A stretch of 33,989 nt of DNA from Candidatus Iainarchaeum sp. GTDB lineage: Archaea > Iainarchaeota > Iainarchaeia > JAGGVJ01. Of the stretch, positions 5,833 through 33,989 are shown piece by piece. The notes under the pieces were generated by a model that searched no databases, was not told where the DNA came from, and saw nothing but the letters and a program-made list of their open reading frames with translations. A program made the position numbers and the translations under genes. Position 1 is the first letter of the stretch; every line of letters starts with the position of its first letter. Location of the stretch: positions 1 through 33,989 of the forward strand of contig JAGGVJ010000010.1 of assembly GCA_021158055.1 (NCBI GenBank), written 5' to 3'.

Positions 5833-7606
5833 TCACCGCCAAAACTATTGCAATAGAAGAAATTACCGTGACTGAAACAAAATGCTTCAGGACATGTTCT
5901 TCAACGCGGTCGAAAAAAAGGCTGATTTTCGCACCGGCATAACCTATTTTTTCGTAAATTCTATTCACGTCAATTAACTGCGACTTTTGCAGGCAACCTG
6001 CTCCAAAATAAAAATTCCCGGCGTCAAAATCAAGCTCCCCAAGAGGAATCTGCTCGCCGCCGGTAAAAGAGGAAACGCGTTTTGAAGACCTGTTTCTTGT
6101 AAAAAACAAATATATCAAAAATCCCGCGATAAACGAGCCCAGCAAAAGCATGTCAAGAAACAGGATATCCCACCTTCCGATGGTTGTTATTATGCTCCAC
6201 CCGACCACCTGCGGGACCATCTTTGAGGAAATGTCAAGCACGGCAGGGTTAACTATGTTATTGAGTACAAAAGGAGACAAAACACCAAGCGCAACGGTTG
6301 CAAGGGCAAGGGACACAAGCGGAAAAGTAATTTCAAACGGCACCTTGAACTTCTTTACCTTCAAAGGGTAGTTTGATAAAAAAACCGAGTTGAACATCTT
6401 CAGGTAAACCCCGAAAGCAAGCGTTATGCTTACAAAAACAAGCAGCACGTAACTCATGTTCTGGTTCAGGAGCGACTCAAGGATCATCCACTTGCTTACC
6501 GAGCCGCTGAACGGGGGAACCCCTGCAACCGCAAGCAACGCAACAATCATCGCCCCTGACACCAGAGGCAAAAATCTGGCTGCCCCACCCATTTTTGTTA
6601 TGTCCCTTGTAACAAACTTGTGGATCAAGATTCCTGCGCCGAGAAAAAGAAGGGACTTGAAAAACGCGTGGTTTAAGGTATGGAAAAGGGCAGCCGACAT
6701 TGAAAGCGGGTTAAGGGAAAATATGCTCACAAAAATTATTGAAACATTTGCTATTGTTGAATACGCCAGGATTCTTTTTATGTCTTTTTCAAAAAACGCA
6801 TAGCACATTACAATTATCGCAGAAAACGCAGCCAGGTAACCGAAAGCAAGACACATTTGCGGGAAAAATGAGATCATTGGGAAAAACCTCATCAAAAGAA
6901 ACACCCCTGCCTTGACCATTACAGCCGAGTGAAGAAGAGCCGACGCCGGTGCTGGAGCTTCCATTGCGTCAGGAAGCCAGATGTGAAACGGAAAAATCGC
7001 GGACTTTGCAAACGCGGCAACCGACAGCATGAAAACCACAAAAAAAAGTGCGTCAACAGGTATTTCAGAAACCATGTTCAGTGAATTGCGTATGCTTTGG
7101 TCAGGGACAAAAAACAACAGCACGATAAAAGCAGTCATCAAAAAAATGGAGCCAAAATGAGTTATTATAAAACACTTTTTCGCCGCAGCCACCGCGTGCG
7201 TGTCTGTGTAGTGGTACAATATCAGAAGGTAAGAGCAAATAGTTATGATCTCCCAGAACATGATAAACATAAAAAAGCTGTCTGCCATCACCATTGCGTT
7301 CATTGAACCCACAAAAGTCATGATCACCATGTAAAAACGCGCCGGGGTTTCTTTCACATACCTTGAAGAATAGACAATTACAAAAAAAGCAATCACTGAA
7401 GCTATTAACGTGAAAAATGACGAAAGGTGGTCGCGAAACAGCAGACCCGGAATCCACGCGGTTTCATTGAATGCAAGCAGGGAAACCACTGCTGTTGCAA
7501 GCGAAAAAAGTATCGCTGAAACTTTAATGTATTGTTCCGCAACTCTTTTCAGGACAGGAAAAAAAACAACTGCTGCAAACGGCAGGTAAATCAACAGTTC
7601 AAACAT
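5819..7606 (-). CDS. NuoL/HyfB/MrpA-like antiporter subunit
   Basis: Multi-TM, FPFHIWLPDAMEAPAPASALLHSAVMVKAGVFLLMRF and RILAYSTIANVSIIF motifs. Confidence 0.85.
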   Translation of the reverse strand: MFELLIYLPFAAVVFFPVLKRVAEQYIKVSAILFSLATAVVSLLAFNETAWIPGLLFRDHLSSFFTLIASVIAFFVIVYSSRYVKETPARFYMVIMTFVGSMNAMVMADSFFMFIMFWEIITICSYLLILYHYTDTHAVAAAKKCFIITHFGSIFLMTAFIVLLFFVPDQSIRNSLNMVSEIPVDALFFVVFMLSVAAFAKSAIFPFHIWLPDAMEAPAPASALLHSAVMVKAGVFLLMRFFPMISFFPQMCLAFGYLAAFSAIIVMCYAFFEKDIKRILAYSTIANVSIIFVSIFSLNPLSMSAALFHTLNHAFFKSLLFLGAGILIHKFVTRDITKMGGAARFLPLVSGAMIVALLAVAGVPPFSGSVSKWMILESLLNQNMSYVLLVFVSITLAFGVYLKMFNSVFLSNYPLKVKKFKVPFEITFPLVSLALATVALGVLSPFVLNNIVNPAVLDISSKMVPQVVGWSIITTIGRWDILFLDMLLLGSFIAGFLIYLFFTRNRSSKRVSSFTGGEQIPLGELDFDAGNFYFGAGCLQKSQLIDVNRIYEKIGYAGAKISLFFDRVEEHVLKHFVSVTVISSIAIVLAVIVFG

Positions 7607-9086: not shown

Positions 9087-10082
9087 TCAGCTTCGCCACG
9101 GGACTTCAACGGCATCTGTTCTCCAATTAGAAATAGGTTGGGATTCTTTAATGGGTGTCTGAAACCCGCTTTTCAGGGCGAGGATTCCGGTCCATGCAAT
9201 CATCGCACCGTTGTCGCCCAAAGTAAAATCAGGGGGAACCGCAAACCTGCAGCCCCGCTCTTTCGCCATCACGGAAAGCTTTTCCCGCAGTCTTTTCGAG
9301 CGCCCGACCCCTCCCGTAAGCAAAAGCTCTGTTTTGCCTGTGTGGGAAAGCGCTCTTTCCGCGGCTTCGGCAAGCATGCAAAACGCGGTTTCCTCAAGTG
9401 AAAAACACACGTCTTCAAGAGTGTTTTCTTTTTTTGCTGCTTGTTTCAGCGCTTCAGTTGCGAGTCCGCTGAACACAAAATCCATCCCTTTGACAGTGTA
9501 AGGCAATTCAATGAACCTTTTTCCTTTTTCCGCAAGCGCTGACACTTTCGGAAAACCCGGGTGTCCGAAACCAAGGTCTCTTGCAAAAGAATCAACAGCG
9601 TTTCCAAGGCCGACATCAAGGGTTTCGCCAAGCACTCTGTATTTTTTGTCTTCAAAAGATATTATCTGCGTGTTTCCGCCTGAAACATACACGACCACAG
9701 AATCAGACATTCCGCAAAGAAGGTTTGCTATTTCTATGTGCGCAACGCAATGGTTCACTCCTATCAAAGGAACATCAAGCAAAACGGAAATTGCTCTTGA
9801 AGCAACCGCTGTTGTTTCAAGGCACGGCCCCAATCCGGGCCCCTGGGAAAAAGCAACTGCATCAATACGGTTTCTTGATGCTTTTGACCCTTCAAAAAGC
9901 GAATTTAAAAGGTCTCCGAACGACGCGCTGATCATTTGCGCTGCTTCGCGCGGGTGGATTCCGCCGGTTTTTGTCGTGTACGTCTTTTTTTTCTCGCACA
10001 ATATGTTTCCTTTGTCGTCCACAAGGGAAAGCCCAAGGGTGTGCGCTGTTCCTTCAATTCCAAGGCAGATCATTTCAACCAA
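9087..10082 (-). CDS. kae1: tRNA N6-threonylcarbamoyladenosine biosynthesis protein Kae1/TsaD (no Bud32 fusion); start perhaps at internal MICLGIEG
   Basis: GIEGTAHTLGLSL, GLGPCLETTAVASR, NHCVAHIEIA, GDNGAMIAW motifs. Confidence 0.92.
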   Translation of the reverse strand: MVEMICLGIEGTAHTLGLSLVDDKGNILCEKKKTYTTKTGGIHPREAAQMISASFGDLLNSLFEGSKASRNRIDAVAFSQGPGLGPCLETTAVASRAISVLLDVPLIGVNHCVAHIEIANLLCGMSDSVVVYVSGGNTQIISFEDKKYRVLGETLDVGLGNAVDSFARDLGFGHPGFPKVSALAEKGKRFIELPYTVKGMDFVFSGLATEALKQAAKKENTLEDVCFSLEETAFCMLAEAAERALSHTGKTELLLTGGVGRSKRLREKLSVMAKERGCRFAVPPDFTLGDNGAMIAWTGILALKSGFQTPIKESQPISNWRTDAVEVPWRS

Positions 10083-16884: not shown

Positions 16885-17406
16885 TCAGTCGGTGTTTTCT
16901 CCCTTGTATACACCGTTGTAAAGGTCTTTCACATTCTCTGAAAGCCTGACAAAAGCCCATTTAATTATCCTTGCGTTTTTCTTCAGCCTCAAACCATTCC
17001 CGTTATGCACATTTAAAAGAGAAGTCATTCTCCCGCAGTAACCGGGATCAACAAACCCAAGACCCATCGTGCACCCGTTTCTTACCATTGAACTCCTGGG
17101 CATTCCAAGCATCATCAGGTCAGCTGAAAGATTCACATGCTCGTTGTAGACAACACAATAAGCGCCTTTCGGCAGAAAAACCCAACCTTCACTGTCAAAC
17201 TCAAGCGGAGTGGATTTGCAGTTCACCCGCTCCTCATTTGAAAAATCAATGCTTCCCGCGCCCTCAAGCCTTTCAATCCTGTTTACCGTAAAATCTATTC
17301 CGACTTGCTGTACCTGAATATCCGCGTCAATCAAGCCGCTGACTATCGGCGGGTTTTTTTCAAGCATTTCCTTTAGCTCGACGTCTGACAAAAACAACAC
17401 AAGCAC
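16885..17406 (-). CDS. dCTP deaminase / dUTPase family protein
   Basis: FLPKGAYCVVYNEHVNLSADLMMLGMPRSSMVRNGCTMGLGFVDPGYCGRMT matches the Dcd/Dut trimeric dUTPase-fold signature. Confidence 0.82.
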   Translation of the reverse strand: MLVLFLSDVELKEMLEKNPPIVSGLIDADIQVQQVGIDFTVNRIERLEGAGSIDFSNEERVNCKSTPLEFDSEGWVFLPKGAYCVVYNEHVNLSADLMMLGMPRSSMVRNGCTMGLGFVDPGYCGRMTSLLNVHNGNGLRLKKNARIIKWAFVRLSENVKDLYNGVYKGENTD

Positions 17407-17429
17407 CCTTGCAGATCAACCGTGAAAAA

Positions 17430-17996
17430 TCACTCTTTTATCACGTGTTTTTCGTCCGCGCGCTTGTAGTTGAACAATTCGTCGACGCTGAACCAAAGCG
17501 CAATTTCCTTTTCCGCTTCTTCCTTGTTACCTGAAGCATGAATAAGATTCCTGCCGCCCATTCCTTCAATTGTGCAGTGGCCCATGCTCAAGTGGGCGTA
17601 GTCCCCGCGGATCGTGCCAGCCGGTGCAACGTGAGGTGAAGTCGGGCCAACCATCTTCCTTATTGCCTTGACTGCGTGAACCCCTTCAAAAACCATTGCA
17701 ACAACAGGGCTCTCTGTCGTAAACTTGAGGAGGTCTTCCCGCGCGGATTCTCCAAGCTCTTCCCTTGTCTTGTCTGTTTCTATGCCGAATTCCTTGAAAT
17801 TGTCAAGGGACTTTCCCCCGAGAATCGGAATCATATTTGCAGGATAATGCTTTTCTGCGAAGTCACGGCTCACCCAAAGCATTTTCATGCCAACTATCTT
17901 CAACCCTCTTTTTTCAAATCTTGAAATAAGCTCTCCGATAATCCCTCTTTGAACTCCGTCCGGTTTTATTACAACAAGGCTTCTTTCAATAGTCAT
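17430..17996 (-). CDS. ndk: Nucleoside diphosphate kinase (extended, 188 aa)
   Basis: MTIERSLVVIKPDGVQRGIIGELISRFEKRGLKIVGMKML, GPTSPHVAPAGTIRGDYA, LIHASG. Confidence 0.92.
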   Translation of the reverse strand: MTIERSLVVIKPDGVQRGIIGELISRFEKRGLKIVGMKMLWVSRDFAEKHYPANMIPILGGKSLDNFKEFGIETDKTREELGESAREDLLKFTTESPVVAMVFEGVHAVKAIRKMVGPTSPHVAPAGTIRGDYAHLSMGHCTIEGMGGRNLIHASGNKEEAEKEIALWFSVDELFNYKRADEKHVIKE

Positions 17997-18111
17997 TTCC
18001 TCACCTGCTTCCTTTTTGTTTTTTGTTTTTAAAATATTGCTTTAGCTGTTAAAAGTTAATAAATCCAGCTGAAAACAACTAACTAATCCTGTTTTAAACA
18101 CAGTCTGTCAG

Positions 18112-18774
18112 TTAAATGTAATTCAGTGCGCTCAGGAACAGCCTCGGGGTTTCTCCTGCATCATATGAAAAATACACTACTTTTCCAAGCCCGTTTTCCC
18201 CTTCAATAACTGCGTTGTATCCTCTTGCGGTGTCAACGGTGTTTCTTTCAATCAATGCAATTTCTTTTCCCTTTGAAATCACTTCAAATAAAATGTACTT
18301 CTTTGCGCTGCGCTCAAATCCGGCAAGCATCGGGTGGTTCAATTCCATCGCTTTTATTTTTCCTTCAACTTCCACCTTCTTCGAGTTTTTTCCGCTTAAA
18401 GGTTCCACAAAACGCGCCGGCACATAACCCATGCAATATGCCCAGCCGACTGTCAAGTTGGCGTCCCTTGTTGCCGCGTCCCCCACAACTATAAGCCCTG
18501 CCCCTTCCTGCACACGTTCTCCGATTTTATCCCTGAACCTGCGCGGCAGGTTCGGGTCTCCCTGCAGGACTATTCTTCCTGCAGCGCCGATGTCTGCAAT
18601 GTCAAGTTCACTGACTGACTTTACAGTGCAATTGAAATCATTTAAAAAATCAGTGGAATTGAAAAGTTCTTCGACCCCCTCGCTTGGCATCCCTATCAAA
18701 AGAACACCTGTGCCCTTGTCTATGGGTTCGGCTGCTTCTTCAACGCATCCGAAAAGCAGCAAACTCAAAAACAA
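18112..18774 (-). CDS. Hypothetical lipoprotein-like secreted protein
   Basis: N-terminal hydrophobic segment ending LLLFGC (lipobox-like); no family recognised. Confidence 0.6.
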   Translation of the reverse strand: MFLSLLLFGCVEEAAEPIDKGTGVLLIGMPSEGVEELFNSTDFLNDFNCTVKSVSELDIADIGAAGRIVLQGDPNLPRRFRDKIGERVQEGAGLIVVGDAATRDANLTVGWAYCMGYVPARFVEPLSGKNSKKVEVEGKIKAMELNHPMLAGFERSAKKYILFEVISKGKEIALIERNTVDTARGYNAVIEGENGLGKVVYFSYDAGETPRLFLSALNYI

Positions 18775-30109: not shown

Positions 30110-30180
30110 AGCAGTGTGTCAAAGGCACCTTATTGGGTTCGAGTCCCAAAACTGCAATCAGCTTTGCAGACCGGCAAAGC
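30110..30180 (+). repeat. tRNA-like element copy A with 3' hairpin
   Basis: GCAGT(30111-30115)/ACTGC(30151-30155); T-arm TTGGG-TTCGAGT-CCCAA 30133-30149; GCTTTGC(30161-30167)/GCAAAGC(30174-30180). Confidence 0.75.
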
Positions 30181-30286
30181 ACGTACTGACCCCTAAACTC
30201 GGATGAGCATAAGGGAAACACCACATTGGGGCTGCTTAATAACCAAGCAGAGGTAAATCCAACAAAAATAATGGAAGGCAATAAGA

Positions 30287-30484
30287 ATGAGCGAAGAAAT
30301 TCCAGAAAAAGAAGATGAACAATTTACATTGACAGACATAGACACGGGCGAAAGCGTAGTTTGTACTGTGCCGATGCTGTTAGGGATAGGCCCCGAAAAA
30401 AATAAGTTCGGAGCACCTAAGAAACCATTGACAAAAAAACAAAAATTAGTTTCTCTGCTGAGGAAATTAATCAAAAAAATATAA
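30287..30484 (+). CDS. Small hypothetical protein following element A
   Basis: MSEEIPEKEDEQFTLTDIDTGESVVCTVPMLLGIGPEKNKFGAPKKPLTKKQKLVSLLRKLIKKI; plausible composition. Confidence 0.55.
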   Translation: MSEEIPEKEDEQFTLTDIDTGESVVCTVPMLLGIGPEKNKFGAPKKPLTKKQKLVSLLRKLIKKI

Positions 30485-30589
30485 ATATAGTGGATTTTCT
30501 GCTTAATGCACCTTGATTTTTGGGGCGAATAGCAGAAAATTTCATATTTTTTAGCCACCAATCAGAGAAATGTCAAAAACCAACAAAAA

Positions 30590-30662
30590 AGCAGTTGCAC
30601 AAACTGGTGCTTTTCTCAGGTTCAAACCCTGAAACTGCGATCGCTTTGCAAACCGGCAAAGC
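30590..30662 (+). repeat. tRNA-like element copy B with 3' hairpin
   Basis: GCAGTT(30591-30596)/AACTGC(30633-30638); GCAC/GTGC hairpin 30597-30610; T-arm TCAGG-TTCAAAC-CCTGA 30616-30632; GCTTTGC(30643-30649)/GCAAAGC(30656-30662). Confidence 0.8.
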
Positions 30663-30890
30663 AACTAGTCAGAATAACAGAACAGAATACAACATTATGG
30701 AAAATAACATGATTAAATTGTATTGTTTTGTTTATTTTCATTTATCAAACTGTTTACTACTATTTATTGTTTGCTTATTGTTTATTTACTAACTGTTTAT
30801 TATTTGTTTATTTTTGTTTACTAAATATTTATTACCTGCTTAATTACTTACTGCCCTGAATACACAAACCGAAAAAATGAATCTTTTTTG

Positions 30891-30906
30891 CGAAAGGTTT
30901 ATATAG
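30891..30906 (+). promoter_or_regulatory. Strong BRE/TATA-like archaeal promoter (cgaaaggtttatatag)
   Basis: BRE-like GAAA followed by TTTATATA; no convincing ORF downstream until 31844. Confidence 0.6.
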
Positions 30907-30930
30907 TTTGTTTGCAATAAATATTGTATC

Positions 30931-31270
30931 TTTTCTATTCTCTCATTCTTCAAACATTTGTCCATGTTCACGGACACACCAACAGACATAGCAGTCTTAA
31001 AATGCTAAAAACGAGATTCAACTCGCCAAAACACTTACTCATTATCCTCACTACTCACTTACCCTACTCATTATCCTCACTACTTACTATTACACTAGTA
31101 TCACACCATTACACTTTCAATTTTTGATTTTTAAATCTTAAAAAATCACATCTGAACTAATTCTTCTTCAGATTAAAGCAGTTTTCCCTGCACACCCCTT
31201 TTTCTTAAACAATTCCTTAATGTTCACTGCAAAGAACAAAGAACTAAACGCAGTAAACATTCCATTGGTT
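30931..31270 (+). ncRNA. Candidate structured RNA copy 2, possibly extending to about 31270
   Basis: TTTTCTATTCTCTCATTCTTCAA at 30931; TGTCC/GGACA 30959-30976; AGCA/TGCT 30990-31006; further hairpin AATGTTCACTGC/GCAGTAAACATT 31219-31261; no credible ORF. Confidence 0.45.
31036..31084 (+). repeat. 20-bp direct repeat TACTCATTATCCTCACTACT, two perfect copies 29 bp apart
   Basis: 31036-31055 and 31065-31084. Confidence 0.95.
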
Positions 31271-31334
31271 GATCCGAAAAAACAACCATAATTCAATCAC
31301 TTCTACTTATATGATACATAACAATAAACTTCTT

Positions 31335-31523
31335 CTAAAATGAAAGGACCCCCATCATACGGAACCCACTTTTTAACTCAATTGGGTCCTTTCGCTTCCC
31401 GTCACGTTTACCCCTGGACAGGATAAAAACAAACTCTTTTTTAAAAACAATTACAGAGCACTCATCAGGCGCATTGGATAAAACGCCCAAAACTCTTTTT
31501 AGGTAAACCCGCTCTTCCTCCAT
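31335..31523 (-). CDS. Possible small orphan ORF (62 aa)
   Basis: MEEERVYLKRVLGVLSNAPDECSVIVFKKEFVFILSRGKRDGKRKDPIELKSGFRMMGVLSF; acceptable composition, no homology recognised. Confidence 0.3.
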   Translation of the reverse strand: MEEERVYLKRVLGVLSNAPDECSVIVFKKEFVFILSRGKRDGKRKDPIELKSGFRMMGVLSF

Positions 31524-31725
31524 CCATCACGTCAGCAAATCACAAAAACGCTGATAAAAACACATACTATGTAAAAAATTATGTAGTAAAAAATTCCGGT
31601 TAACCACAATTGGAAACAAAACTAATCGGTTACAAATACCAACATAGCTGTTTAGGCGTTCCCTAACATCTTCTGAGTACCCGCTCAAACCACCAAAATT
31701 ATTTGGTGCTACATCAAATCAAACA

Positions 31726-31818
31726 AGCAACTCTGCATACACAGGGTATACTAAGCGAAAGCTTAACAGGGTTCAAATCCCGCAGTTGCAATCGCTTTAC
31801 CAAAGCAACCGGCAAAGC
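31726..31818 (+). repeat. tRNA-like element copy C (four-arm form) with 3' hairpin
   Basis: GCAACT(31727-31732)/AGTTGC(31784-31789); ATAC/GTAT 31737-31749; TAAGC-GAAA-GCTTA 31752-31765; T-arm GGG-TTCAAAT-CCC 31769-31781; GCTTTACC(31794-31801)/GGCAAAGC(31811-31818). Confidence 0.82.
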
Positions 31819-31843
31819 AACAAAAACATGGGAGTGGAACAAC

Positions 31844-32161
31844 ATGCACAACAACACAACACCAGAAAACAAAGAACTTCAAAAGGCGGAAAAAACGCCA
31901 AGAGAGACATATAAGGCATGGCAAAAATGGCAAAAGTACTTTAAGGAAAAACTGTACAGGCAACCCGCATCGTCACACGAAGACTATTACAATCTGGCGA
32001 TACTTACTGCAAGGTCACCGCAACAGGCGATTGCAATGATCAGGAAAGCGCAGAGGATTGATCCAAGTAGTATGGGAATCGACCTCGCAGAGGATTTCAG
32101 GTTGCTGTACAATAGGACGGAACACGACTATGAAAGGCAACACATCTCTGCTTTACGGTAG
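31844..32161 (+). CDS. Small orphan protein (MHNNTTPENKELQ...) following element C
   Basis: SD-like ggagtgg upstream; leader and N-terminus shared with the ORF at 33114. Confidence 0.7.
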   Translation: MHNNTTPENKELQKAEKTPRETYKAWQKWQKYFKEKLYRQPASSHEDYYNLAILTARSPQQAIAMIRKAQRIDPSSMGIDLAEDFRLLYNRTEHDYERQHISALR

Positions 32162-32166
32162 TGAAT

Positions 32167-32186
32167 TGGCTTCTTTTTTTACGCCA
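32167..32186 (+). terminator. Repeated U-tract hairpin TGGC-ttctttttttac-GCCA
   Basis: Just 3' of the ORF ending at 32161; same motif at 32950 and 33562. Confidence 0.7.
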
Positions 32187-32207
32187 CCCGCCCCCGTGAA
32201 ACACAGC

Positions 32208-32294
32208 AGTGGCAAGAAACGCAATTACTGCGTTGTCTTAGCGAGCATCAAAACCGCAGCCGCCAATTACTTTGCCAAAAAAACCAAGGCAAGG
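32208..32294 (+). repeat. tRNA-like element copy D (degenerate) with 3' hairpin
   Basis: GTGGC(32209-32213)/GCCGC(32259-32263); ACGCA-attac-TGCGT 32219-32233; degenerate T-loop atcaaaa; CTTTGCC(32270-32276)/GGCAAGG(32288-32294). Confidence 0.6.
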
Positions 32295-32337
32295 TAAAAA
32301 AAGCATATTAGAGATAAAAACAAAGGAGTTGAAAACT

Positions 32338-32943
32338 ATGAAATTAATAACATTCGTGGTGCTTGGCATGATCATCATGATAAGTGTAGTCAGCGTAGGA
32401 GCTTACGCGTTTGTAAAATCCGCTGACTTTGGATACATCTCCGGAACCACCGAAGACTACTCTGTGGCTAAAGAGGATTTTCGACTGGAAGTCAATGGTG
32501 AAATCGCCACCATCCAGGACGGCAAACTTGCCTCACCCGGAGATACATTTGTAGTTCCCATCAAGGGAAAGTACAAGACAAGCGGAACGGTCAAAATCAC
32601 CAACACCGAAAATAACAAAGGGATTATCATATATAATCTCGGAGTTGGCACAGGTGATTATGCTAAAGCCAGCACCAAGTGGTCATTTAACAGGAATAGT
32701 GGGTGGTTTTCGTGGAGATCACCTGATTCCCTAATATTTGGGAAGGGAACTGGACTACATGTGTTAAGCGGAAGCCCGGAGATGAACGCAGCTCTTGAGT
32801 CAATCAGGGTCGGAGATGAAATCGTGATAAGCGGCTATGACGGAGAAAAAATAATTCTCTACGAAAACGGGAAAAAGCTCACGCGTGGCCTCAAAGGATG
32901 CCATTACGTAGTGGTCACAGACCTGAAAATAAAGAAAAAATAA
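32338..32943 (+). CDS. Orphan secreted or membrane-anchored protein following element D
   Basis: SD aaaggagtt; N-terminal TM MKLITFVVLGMIIMISVVSVGAYAFV; balanced globular composition. Confidence 0.75.
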   Translation: MKLITFVVLGMIIMISVVSVGAYAFVKSADFGYISGTTEDYSVAKEDFRLEVNGEIATIQDGKLASPGDTFVVPIKGKYKTSGTVKITNTENNKGIIIYNLGVGTGDYAKASTKWSFNRNSGWFSWRSPDSLIFGKGTGLHVLSGSPEMNAALESIRVGDEIVISGYDGEKIILYENGKKLTRGLKGCHYVVVTDLKIKKK

Positions 32944-32949
32944 AATTCA

Positions 32950-32973
32950 GTCGGCTTCTTTTTTTACGCCGAC
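32950..32973 (+). terminator. Repeated U-tract hairpin GTCGGC-ttctttttttac-GCCGAC
   Basis: Same 12-nt loop as at 32167 and 33562, stem changed compensatorily (CGGC/GCCG versus TGGC/GCCA). Confidence 0.75.
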
Positions 32974-32991
32974 CTATTTCTTTGCAGGAGT

Positions 32992-33090
32992 AGCATCTGA
33001 GCGCTGGACGGAGCGCAGGCACTGAAAAAAGTGTTCAACCGGCTCAAAACCGGCAGTTGCCATAGCTTTGCCAAAAAAGCAACGGCAAAG
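32992..33090 (+). repeat. tRNA-like element copy E (four-arm form) with 3' hairpin
   Basis: GCATCT(32993-32998)/AGTTGC(33055-33060, one mismatch); GCGC-tggacgga-GCGC 33001-33016; CACT-gaaaaa-AGTG 33020-33033; CCGG-CTCAAAA-CCGG 33039-33053; GCTTTGCC(33065-33072)/GGCAAAG(33084-33090). Confidence 0.82.
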
Positions 33091-33113
33091 TGAACAACCA
33101 GGAGTGAAACAAC

Positions 33114-33545
33114 ATGCACAACACAACACAAGAAACCGAAGAACTTCAACAAATCGAAATGGAACTCTTTGGAACAACCCAAAGAACCGAACGATTCATA
33201 GAAGAAACCGCAGCATCCAACAGCAAGAGCACAACAGGCACCCTGACAGCGGAAAACATACTTTCCTTCCTCAGAACCAAGGATACCGCAACATTGTTCA
33301 AAACACTAAGATCAGTGTCGTCACCAGGATGTATGTGCGACACCCCTAAGTTAACAGAACAACTATGCAAAGCAATCACTTTGAGATTGTTCAACGGCAA
33401 CCCGAGGATTTCCGAAAGCATGACAAACATGCTCATAATCGGAAAACACAGGTACGCATGGTCATTCACTGAACTTGTGAACGTTTTCAAGTTCAACGAA
33501 GAATGCATCAGCCTGATTGAACGCACTGCACAGCAAACCACCTAA
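33114..33545 (+). CDS. Small orphan protein (MHNTTQETEELQ...) following element E
   Basis: SD aggagtg; leader and N-terminus shared with the ORF at 31844. Confidence 0.72.
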   Translation: MHNTTQETEELQQIEMELFGTTQRTERFIEETAASNSKSTTGTLTAENILSFLRTKDTATLFKTLRSVSSPGCMCDTPKLTEQLCKAITLRLFNGNPRISESMTNMLIIGKHRYAWSFTELVNVFKFNEECISLIERTAQQTT

Positions 33546-33561
33546 AGCATTGACAGTAAAT

Positions 33562-33581
33562 TGGCTTCTTTTTTTACGCCA
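33562..33581 (+). terminator. Repeated U-tract hairpin TGGC-ttctttttttac-GCCA
   Basis: 17 nt past the ORF ending at 33545; identical loop to the two other copies. Confidence 0.7.
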
Positions 33582-33626
33582 CTTACTGCCGTGATTAACA
33601 AATCACAAATAAGGAATCACTTCCTT

Positions 33627-33714
33627 AGCAGTTGAACACGCACACCGGGTGCAACTAACTCCTCGGGTTCAAATCCCGCAACTGCAATCGCTTTGTCAAA
33701 AGCAACCGGCAAAG
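33627..33714 (+). repeat. tRNA-like element copy F with 3' hairpin
   Basis: GCAGTTG(33628-33634)/CAACTGC(33679-33685) 7 bp; GCAC-accgg-GTGC 33640-33652; CGGG-TTCAAAT-CCCG 33664-33678; GCTTTGTC(33690-33697)/GGCAAAG(33708-33714). Confidence 0.85.
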
Positions 33715-33811
33715 TAAGAACAAGCAGGACAAGATACTGCTTGTAACACCTCAACTGCTCCAGCGAAAGCGGGAAGCGTTGAGTAGAACAACCTATAAGG
33801 AGAGAAACAAT

Positions 33812-33989
33812 ATGCCAGAAGGCAACACAAATGGAACGTCAGAAAATGACGAACACAGAACCCCTAGAAACTGGAAGAGAATAGGGAAAATAGGCACCGG
33901 ACTAGTAACAATAATTGCAGTCCTTGCCTTAATATCGTGGCTAAGAGATCCAATCCTAAGCTGGATAACAAACCACTGGCTGGTGACAG
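33812..33989 (+). CDS. Small TM-containing orphan protein, truncated by the window edge
   Basis: SD aaggag; MPEGNTNGTSENDEHRTPRNWKRIGKIGTGLVTIIAVLALISWLRDPILSWITNHWLVT. Confidence 0.65.
   Translation, partial: MPEGNTNGTSENDEHRTPRNWKRIGKIGTGLVTIIAVLALISWLRDPILSWITNHWLVT

Follow-up and report, generated by a model that had tools for sequence, protein, structure and literature searches.

What are tRNA-shaped spacers doing between the small genes of an archaeon? The question is raised by one end of a 33,989-nt contig of Candidatus Iainarchaeum sp. (JAGGVJ010000010.1; the window, which is the entire contig C20), where an earlier inspection of the DNA letters (the sequence-only reading) had placed six copies of a tRNA-like element on the + strand. 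All six were present at those places (copies A to F: 30111-30180, 30591-30662, 31727-31818, 32206-32298, 32993-33091 and 33628-33715), and each combines, 5' to 3', an acceptor-like stem with a small D-like hairpin and a T-arm whose loop has 7 nt; a second hairpin, GCTTTGC...GCAAAGC, follows after about 4-5 nt. The evidence below supports selection on these elements as folded, tRNA-like molecules. What they do is less certain, and we tentatively read them, at somewhat short of an even chance, as punctuation marks that divide a long polycistronic RNA into separate mRNAs.

Copies and architecture of the element

A covariance model built from the six window copies alone recovered seven further copies (G to M; E 2e-8 to 2e-15), all on the + strand of contig C23 (4845, 6201, 6520, 7602, 8375, 16009 and 16917), and no further match better than E 0.1 in the rest of the 1.15 Mb genome. 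The 13 copies occupy two contigs and one strand, run along the direction of the genes and are all intergenic. The window ends inside the open reading frame (ORF) of unit F, the first C23 copy lies 4.8 kb into its contig, and the two contigs may be adjacent on the chromosome. The 7-nt T-loop mostly reads TTCRAAT across the 13 copies. An exact-pattern search of the genome never found the GCTTTGC/GCAAAGC hairpin apart from the element, and other T-arm-like sites in the genome were coding sequence or tRNAs, except for one at C28:6964.

Individual copies depart from this plan. A third hairpin at the anticodon position was found only in C and E, the other copies having no such arm, and the T-arm of D is degenerate. 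An A in front of the acceptor, which the sequence-only reading had listed as part of the shared architecture, proved not to be general, the base being G, C, C and T in copies G, H, I and J, respectively. At C23:222-295, a GCAGC...GCTGC pair around a GGGC/GCCT hairpin precedes an ORF and may be a degenerate 14th element; it was not recovered by the model at E<=5.

Evidence for selection on the fold

All six window copies formed a better fold than their dinucleotide-shuffled counterparts (z from -2.1 to -3.5). In an alignment of the 13 copies, covering a 7-bp acceptor, a 4-bp T-stem and the 7-bp hairpin, 91.4% of the cells were paired compared to 27-42% when the partners were slid by 1-3 columns, so that the stems indeed vary while staying complementary, as had been noticed at the outset. 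Both-sided changes occurred in six pairs compared to 2.1 in shuffles. Because related copies can mimic covariation, we used a tree-aware null, in which each column's parsimony substitutions were placed on randomly drawn branches of a FastTree tree. Against this null, both-sided compensated cells numbered 9 where 2.5 were expected (p about 0.001), and the paired cells exceeded the 83.7% obtained under it (p 0.008). The acceptor of element C, for instance, differs from the consensus by two compensatory pairs. The D-like hairpin was tested copy by copy, as its sequences differ and are not alignable; it was formed in most copies (combined p 1e-4, the copies not being independent) and has GG in its loop in about 10 of the 13, which resembles, by analogy, the D-loop/T-loop contact of the tRNA elbow. 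Top-strand G-U and C-A mismatches were about equal in number and are therefore uninformative on strand choice. Selection on a folded molecule, which the sequence-only reading had suggested, is thus supported: the covariance-model check that it proposed yielded both covariation beyond the tree-aware null and seven more copies.

Relation to tRNA and distribution

The elements are not canonical tRNA genes. No copy was reported by ARAGORN or by the Rfam tRNA model (E<=1, E<=5), and none of the 4227 models of Rfam 15 matched any copy. Between the T-loop and the acceptor 3' end, all 13 copies have 11 nt, compared to 12 nt in ordinary host tRNAs; the tRNA geometry that had been read from copies A and B is therefore not strict. 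CCA is not encoded in the elements, and no recovered host tRNA shares their acceptor. We rejected a decayed host tRNA as their source on account of the differing acceptors and of the 11-nt run in every copy; likewise, no parent was found in the genome for the view that the copies are decayed duplicates of one ordinary tRNA.

The model search found no copy in the other 86 genomes of the phylum, so that looking beyond the window enlarged the set on C23 and gave nothing among the relatives; the genome is the sole member of its family in the comparison set. Weak model matches in six phylum genomes vanished with a structured model and look like chance matches, a tRNA-Pro and an apparently intron-split tRNA. 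When 85k GTDB species genomes were scanned with a pattern that is exact in the hairpin and can thus miss diverged relatives, 16 isolated matches were returned, mostly bacterial; the archaeal match was a tRNA-Thr followed by a hairpin, the four that were checked all had tRNA genes at the locus, and the matches were taken as chance. Viral contigs contained no convincing relative of the element and no relative of three array proteins, and a provirus or plasmid origin was rejected, phage and plasmid records giving no DNA match. In another genome of the phylum (L029, 701-930), an apparent tRNA gene carries a long insert with repeated TAGC-TTTTT hairpins at its borders.

The gene row around the elements

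The features of the window end are as follows, all on the + strand.

30111..30155, +, tRNA-like element A: acceptor GCAGT/ACTGC, D-like GTGTC/GGCAC, T-arm TTGGG-TTCGAGT-CCCAA
30161..30180, +, hairpin of element A, GCTTTGC/GCAAAGC
30287..30484, +, ORF of unit A, 65 aa, without named relative
30591..30638, +, tRNA-like element B: acceptor GCAGTT/AACTGC, D-like GCAC/GTGC, T-arm TCAGG-TTCAAAC-CCTGA
30643..30662, +, hairpin of element B
30878..30905, +, promoter-like site: TGAATCTTTTTTGC, GCGAAAGG (like a B recognition element, BRE) and TTTATATA
31727..31789, +, tRNA-like element C: acceptor GCAACT/AGTTGC, anticodon-position hairpin TAAGC-GAAA-GCTTA
31794..31818, +, hairpin of element C
31844..32161, +, ORF of unit C, 105 aa, no Pfam family, Shine-Dalgarno (SD)-like GGAG upstream
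32167..32186, +, T-rich-loop hairpin TGGC...GCCA at the end of unit C (repeat family D2)
32206..32263, +, tRNA-like element D: register-shifted acceptor GTGGC/GCCGC, D-like AACGCA/TGCGTT, degenerate T-arm
32268..32297, +, hairpin of element D
32338..32943, +, ORF of unit D, 201 aa, N-terminal hydrophobic segment, no Pfam family, SD-like GGAG upstream
32950..32973, +, T-rich-loop hairpin GTCGGC...GCCGAC at the end of unit D
32993..33060, +, tRNA-like element E: acceptor GCATCTG/CAGTTGC, D-like GCGCT/AGCGC, anticodon-position hairpin, T-arm CCGG-CTCAAAA-CCGG
33065..33091, +, hairpin of element E
33114..33545, +, ORF of unit E, 143 aa, no Pfam family, its first ~17 codons similar to those of unit C (repeat families D8, D13)
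33562..33581, +, T-rich-loop hairpin TGGC...GCCA at the end of unit E (repeat family D2)
33628..33685, +, tRNA-like element F: acceptor GCAGTTG/CAACTGC, D-like GCAC-ACCGG-GTGC, T-arm CGGG-TTCAAAT-CCCG
33690..33715, +, hairpin of element F
33812..33989, +, ORF of unit F (MPEGNTNGTSENDEH...), truncated by the contig end

The small SD-led ORF that had been described downstream of the elements was found for 11 of the 13 copies, starting 23-107 nt after the element and mostly with an SD-like motif. It failed for the other two, B and G, which seem to have lost their ORFs: in unit G an SD is present downstream and the start codon is apparently lost, and B has no convincing ORF and no SD. Units span from a lone 33-aa ORF to a 7.5-kb multi-gene block, and by ORF count the coding fraction is about 82% over C23:4.8-18.4 kb.

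The genes of the row are mostly orphans, the exceptions being a uS3 gene, an AAA ATPase gene and two weak family matches. The uS3 (C23:1080-1742) is a second, complete archaeal uS3 (152 bits, above one equivalog cut-off), the ordinary gene lying at C23:51388-51642; compared to viral and phage records, the paralogue gave a sole match, a phage-listed rpsC at 25% identity. The double AAA ATPase (C23:11090-13252) is CDC48-like at 570 bits, below the 803-bit CDC48 cut-off, and its gene adjoins a weak archaemetzincin-like and a weak AN1 zinc finger gene. Two paralogous pairs of orphan proteins were also seen (C23:3557-4252 and 6668-7378, E 5e-12; 17031-17945 and 17970-18392, E 4e-7) and therefore point to local duplication. 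Just past the array and before isoprenoid-pathway-like genes, C23:19535-22153 encodes an 872-aa ATPase that is distantly CedD/HerA/TraC-like.

Transcription and the proposed mechanism

Immediately ahead of the array, TATA-like boxes are common, with a strong BRE/TATA at 30898, and in the next 20.9 kb they are depleted (3 observed compared to 9.8 expected, p about 0.01). From copy C onwards the element spacers contain no TATA-like box. Strong boxes reappear at C23:18547-18868, and both ends of the array (30878-30905 and C23:18849-18875) carry the 14-mer TGAATCTTTTTTGC followed by TTTATATA. The depletion suits a long transcription unit, with moderate statistical support. An internal promoter in the T-rich linker between D-like hairpin and T-arm (CTATTTTT) was considered and rejected, as the linker motif occurs only in the C23 copies. 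The host has the enzymes for tRNA end processing, namely an RNase P RNA (E 8e-33) and an RNase Z (341 bits, above the cut-off), and the lack of an encoded CCA in the elements suits RNase Z.

From this we infer co-transcription of the row, cleavage at the elements and protection of the products by end hairpins. For the most part, a single polycistronic RNA would cover the gene row, probably starting at the promoter near 30898 and reaching into C23. Each spacer RNA would fold as a minimal tRNA mimic, in which the acceptor stacks on the T-arm, a D-like hairpin is present and the anticodon arm is usually missing; RNase P would cut this mimic on the 5' side and RNase Z on the 3' side. A freed mRNA would then start with the GCTTTGC/GCAAAGC hairpin, followed by the SD and the start codon, and many would finish in a T-rich-loop hairpin, giving structure at both ends. 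The fuller proposal, that a module of tRNA mimic and hairpin cuts a transcript of at least 20 kb into hairpin-protected mRNAs, possibly co-controlled with the second uS3, seems to us rather doubtful.

Several observations weigh against punctuation. The TATA depletion is only moderate, and just downstream of the array the boxes are also few (2 compared to 5.9). T-rich-loop hairpins end many units (32167, 32950 and 33562; C23 6446 and 18446), and in sequence their T-runs look like archaeal terminators; if they terminate, the array is not a single transcript and punctuation is less needed. Terminator-like hairpins also stand at boundaries that have no element (C23:5486 and 9520-9560), and ordinary operons do not need to be cut. 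The fold is poor in copies D and H, the elements have an acceptor/T stack of 11 nt instead of the canonical 7 + 5 = 12 bp, and no relative among the genomes searched shows conservation of the element.

Alternative explanations

An alternative explanation is that the elements are cis-regulatory leader RNAs, in which element and hairpin form a module of the 5' untranslated region that is bound by a protein and controls translation of the next ORF, one regulator serving the whole set. The second uS3 or a tRNA-binding enzyme would be the candidate binder. The elements do lie directly upstream of an SD and start codon, the tRNA-like part and the hairpin always stay together, leader sequence is common to units up to the start codon, and the uS3 paralogue sits within the same row, with the ordinary uS3 elsewhere. 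However, the distance from element to ATG is as variable as noted above (23-107 nt), no alternative, switch-like pairing that involves the SD was found to be conserved, G retains an SD with its start codon seemingly lost and B has neither, and the link to uS3 is one of proximity only. We consider leader RNAs unlikely.

Neutral spread, by which a tRNA-like spacer was duplicated with its neighbourhood through unequal crossing-over and its fold simply inherited, is already disfavoured and appears improbable. It would explain why flanks are common to neighbours (the leaders of C and E; the upstream regions of H/I and L/M), why there are gene duplicates within the row and why copies B, D and H are degraded. 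It sits poorly with compensatory changes above the tree-aware null and with an 11-nt spacing that is fixed in 13 copies, some of which are only 36% identical over the alignment.

The sequence-only reading had offered two functions, of which RNA-processing punctuation fits and integron-like recombination does not. In the latter, the elements would be structure-specific DNA sites at which an integrase shuffles the units, as their repetition as folded sites in one orientation between ORFs of unknown function might suggest; integrons have been reported in archaeal metagenome-assembled genomes (MAGs) (PMC9668308), which lends the idea some precedent. However, the attC core pair RYYYAAC...GTTRRRY is absent from the 13 copies on both strands, and the search for a recombinase, which that reading had proposed, found a sole tyrosine recombinase, of 272 aa and Xer-like by size, on contig C21. 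No IntI candidate was found in the genome, which is 95% complete, the IntI-specific domain not being scored directly. The 'cassettes' reach 7.5 kb with several genes, and neighbouring copies are somewhat more alike in a copy-order test (p 0.016 overall, no such signal within contigs), which suits local duplication. Recombination sites are thus very improbable.

Least probable of all is that the elements are decayed tRNA genes or tRNA-derived attachment-site remnants of serial integrations: tRNA genes are common integration sites and the T-arm and acceptor are tRNA-like, but no host tRNA has the acceptor of the elements, the tRNA model matches no copy, most copies retain both acceptor halves, the extra hairpin occurs nowhere else in the genome, no integrase lies nearby, and none of the 86 phylum genomes has a tRNA gene with a GCAGTTG/CAACTGC acceptor followed by the same hairpin.

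Comparison with known systems

tRNA punctuation is known mainly from organelles, and single tRNA mimics from human long non-coding RNAs (lncRNAs); an archaeal counterpart was not found in the limited selection of open-access literature searched. If the elements are punctuation marks, tRNA-processing enzymes can be recruited to mRNA maturation in a prokaryotic genome, and the 13 copies, with their 11-bp stack and, in most, no anticodon arm, are natural variants with which to probe what RNase P and RNase Z require of a substrate.

Compared to archaeal integrons and clusters of attC sites lacking integron integrases (CALINs; PMC9668308), the row likewise has folded sites between ORFs that share one orientation and whose function is unknown, and it differs in having no attC core, no IntI-like recombinase found and long multi-gene units. 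The mascRNA and menRNA of MALAT1 and MEN-beta are tRNA mimics with an acceptor, a T-arm and a reduced D-arm, and both RNase P and RNase Z recognise them (PMC11693755). They have acceptor and T-arm in common with the elements, but each is a lone human nuclear element at the 3' end of an lncRNA, with a stem at the anticodon position, which most copies here do not have. In animal mitochondria, tRNAs between the genes of a polycistron are cut by RNase P and RNase Z, which frees the mRNAs (PMC9181182). The tRNA-shaped unit between genes is common to both; the mitochondrial marks are real tRNAs, whereas those described here are non-coding mimics, mostly without an anticodon arm, in a row that may be co-transcribed. 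Plant-mitochondrial t-elements are likewise tRNA-like and have been reported to mark the intergenic cleavage that sets mRNA 5' and 3' ends (PMC8003010). They share with the present elements a tRNA-like structure at gene borders that is not a functional tRNA, but they are organellar, whereas here 13 related copies, each joined to a second hairpin and each a candidate site of cleavage, stand in one row on an archaeal chromosome.

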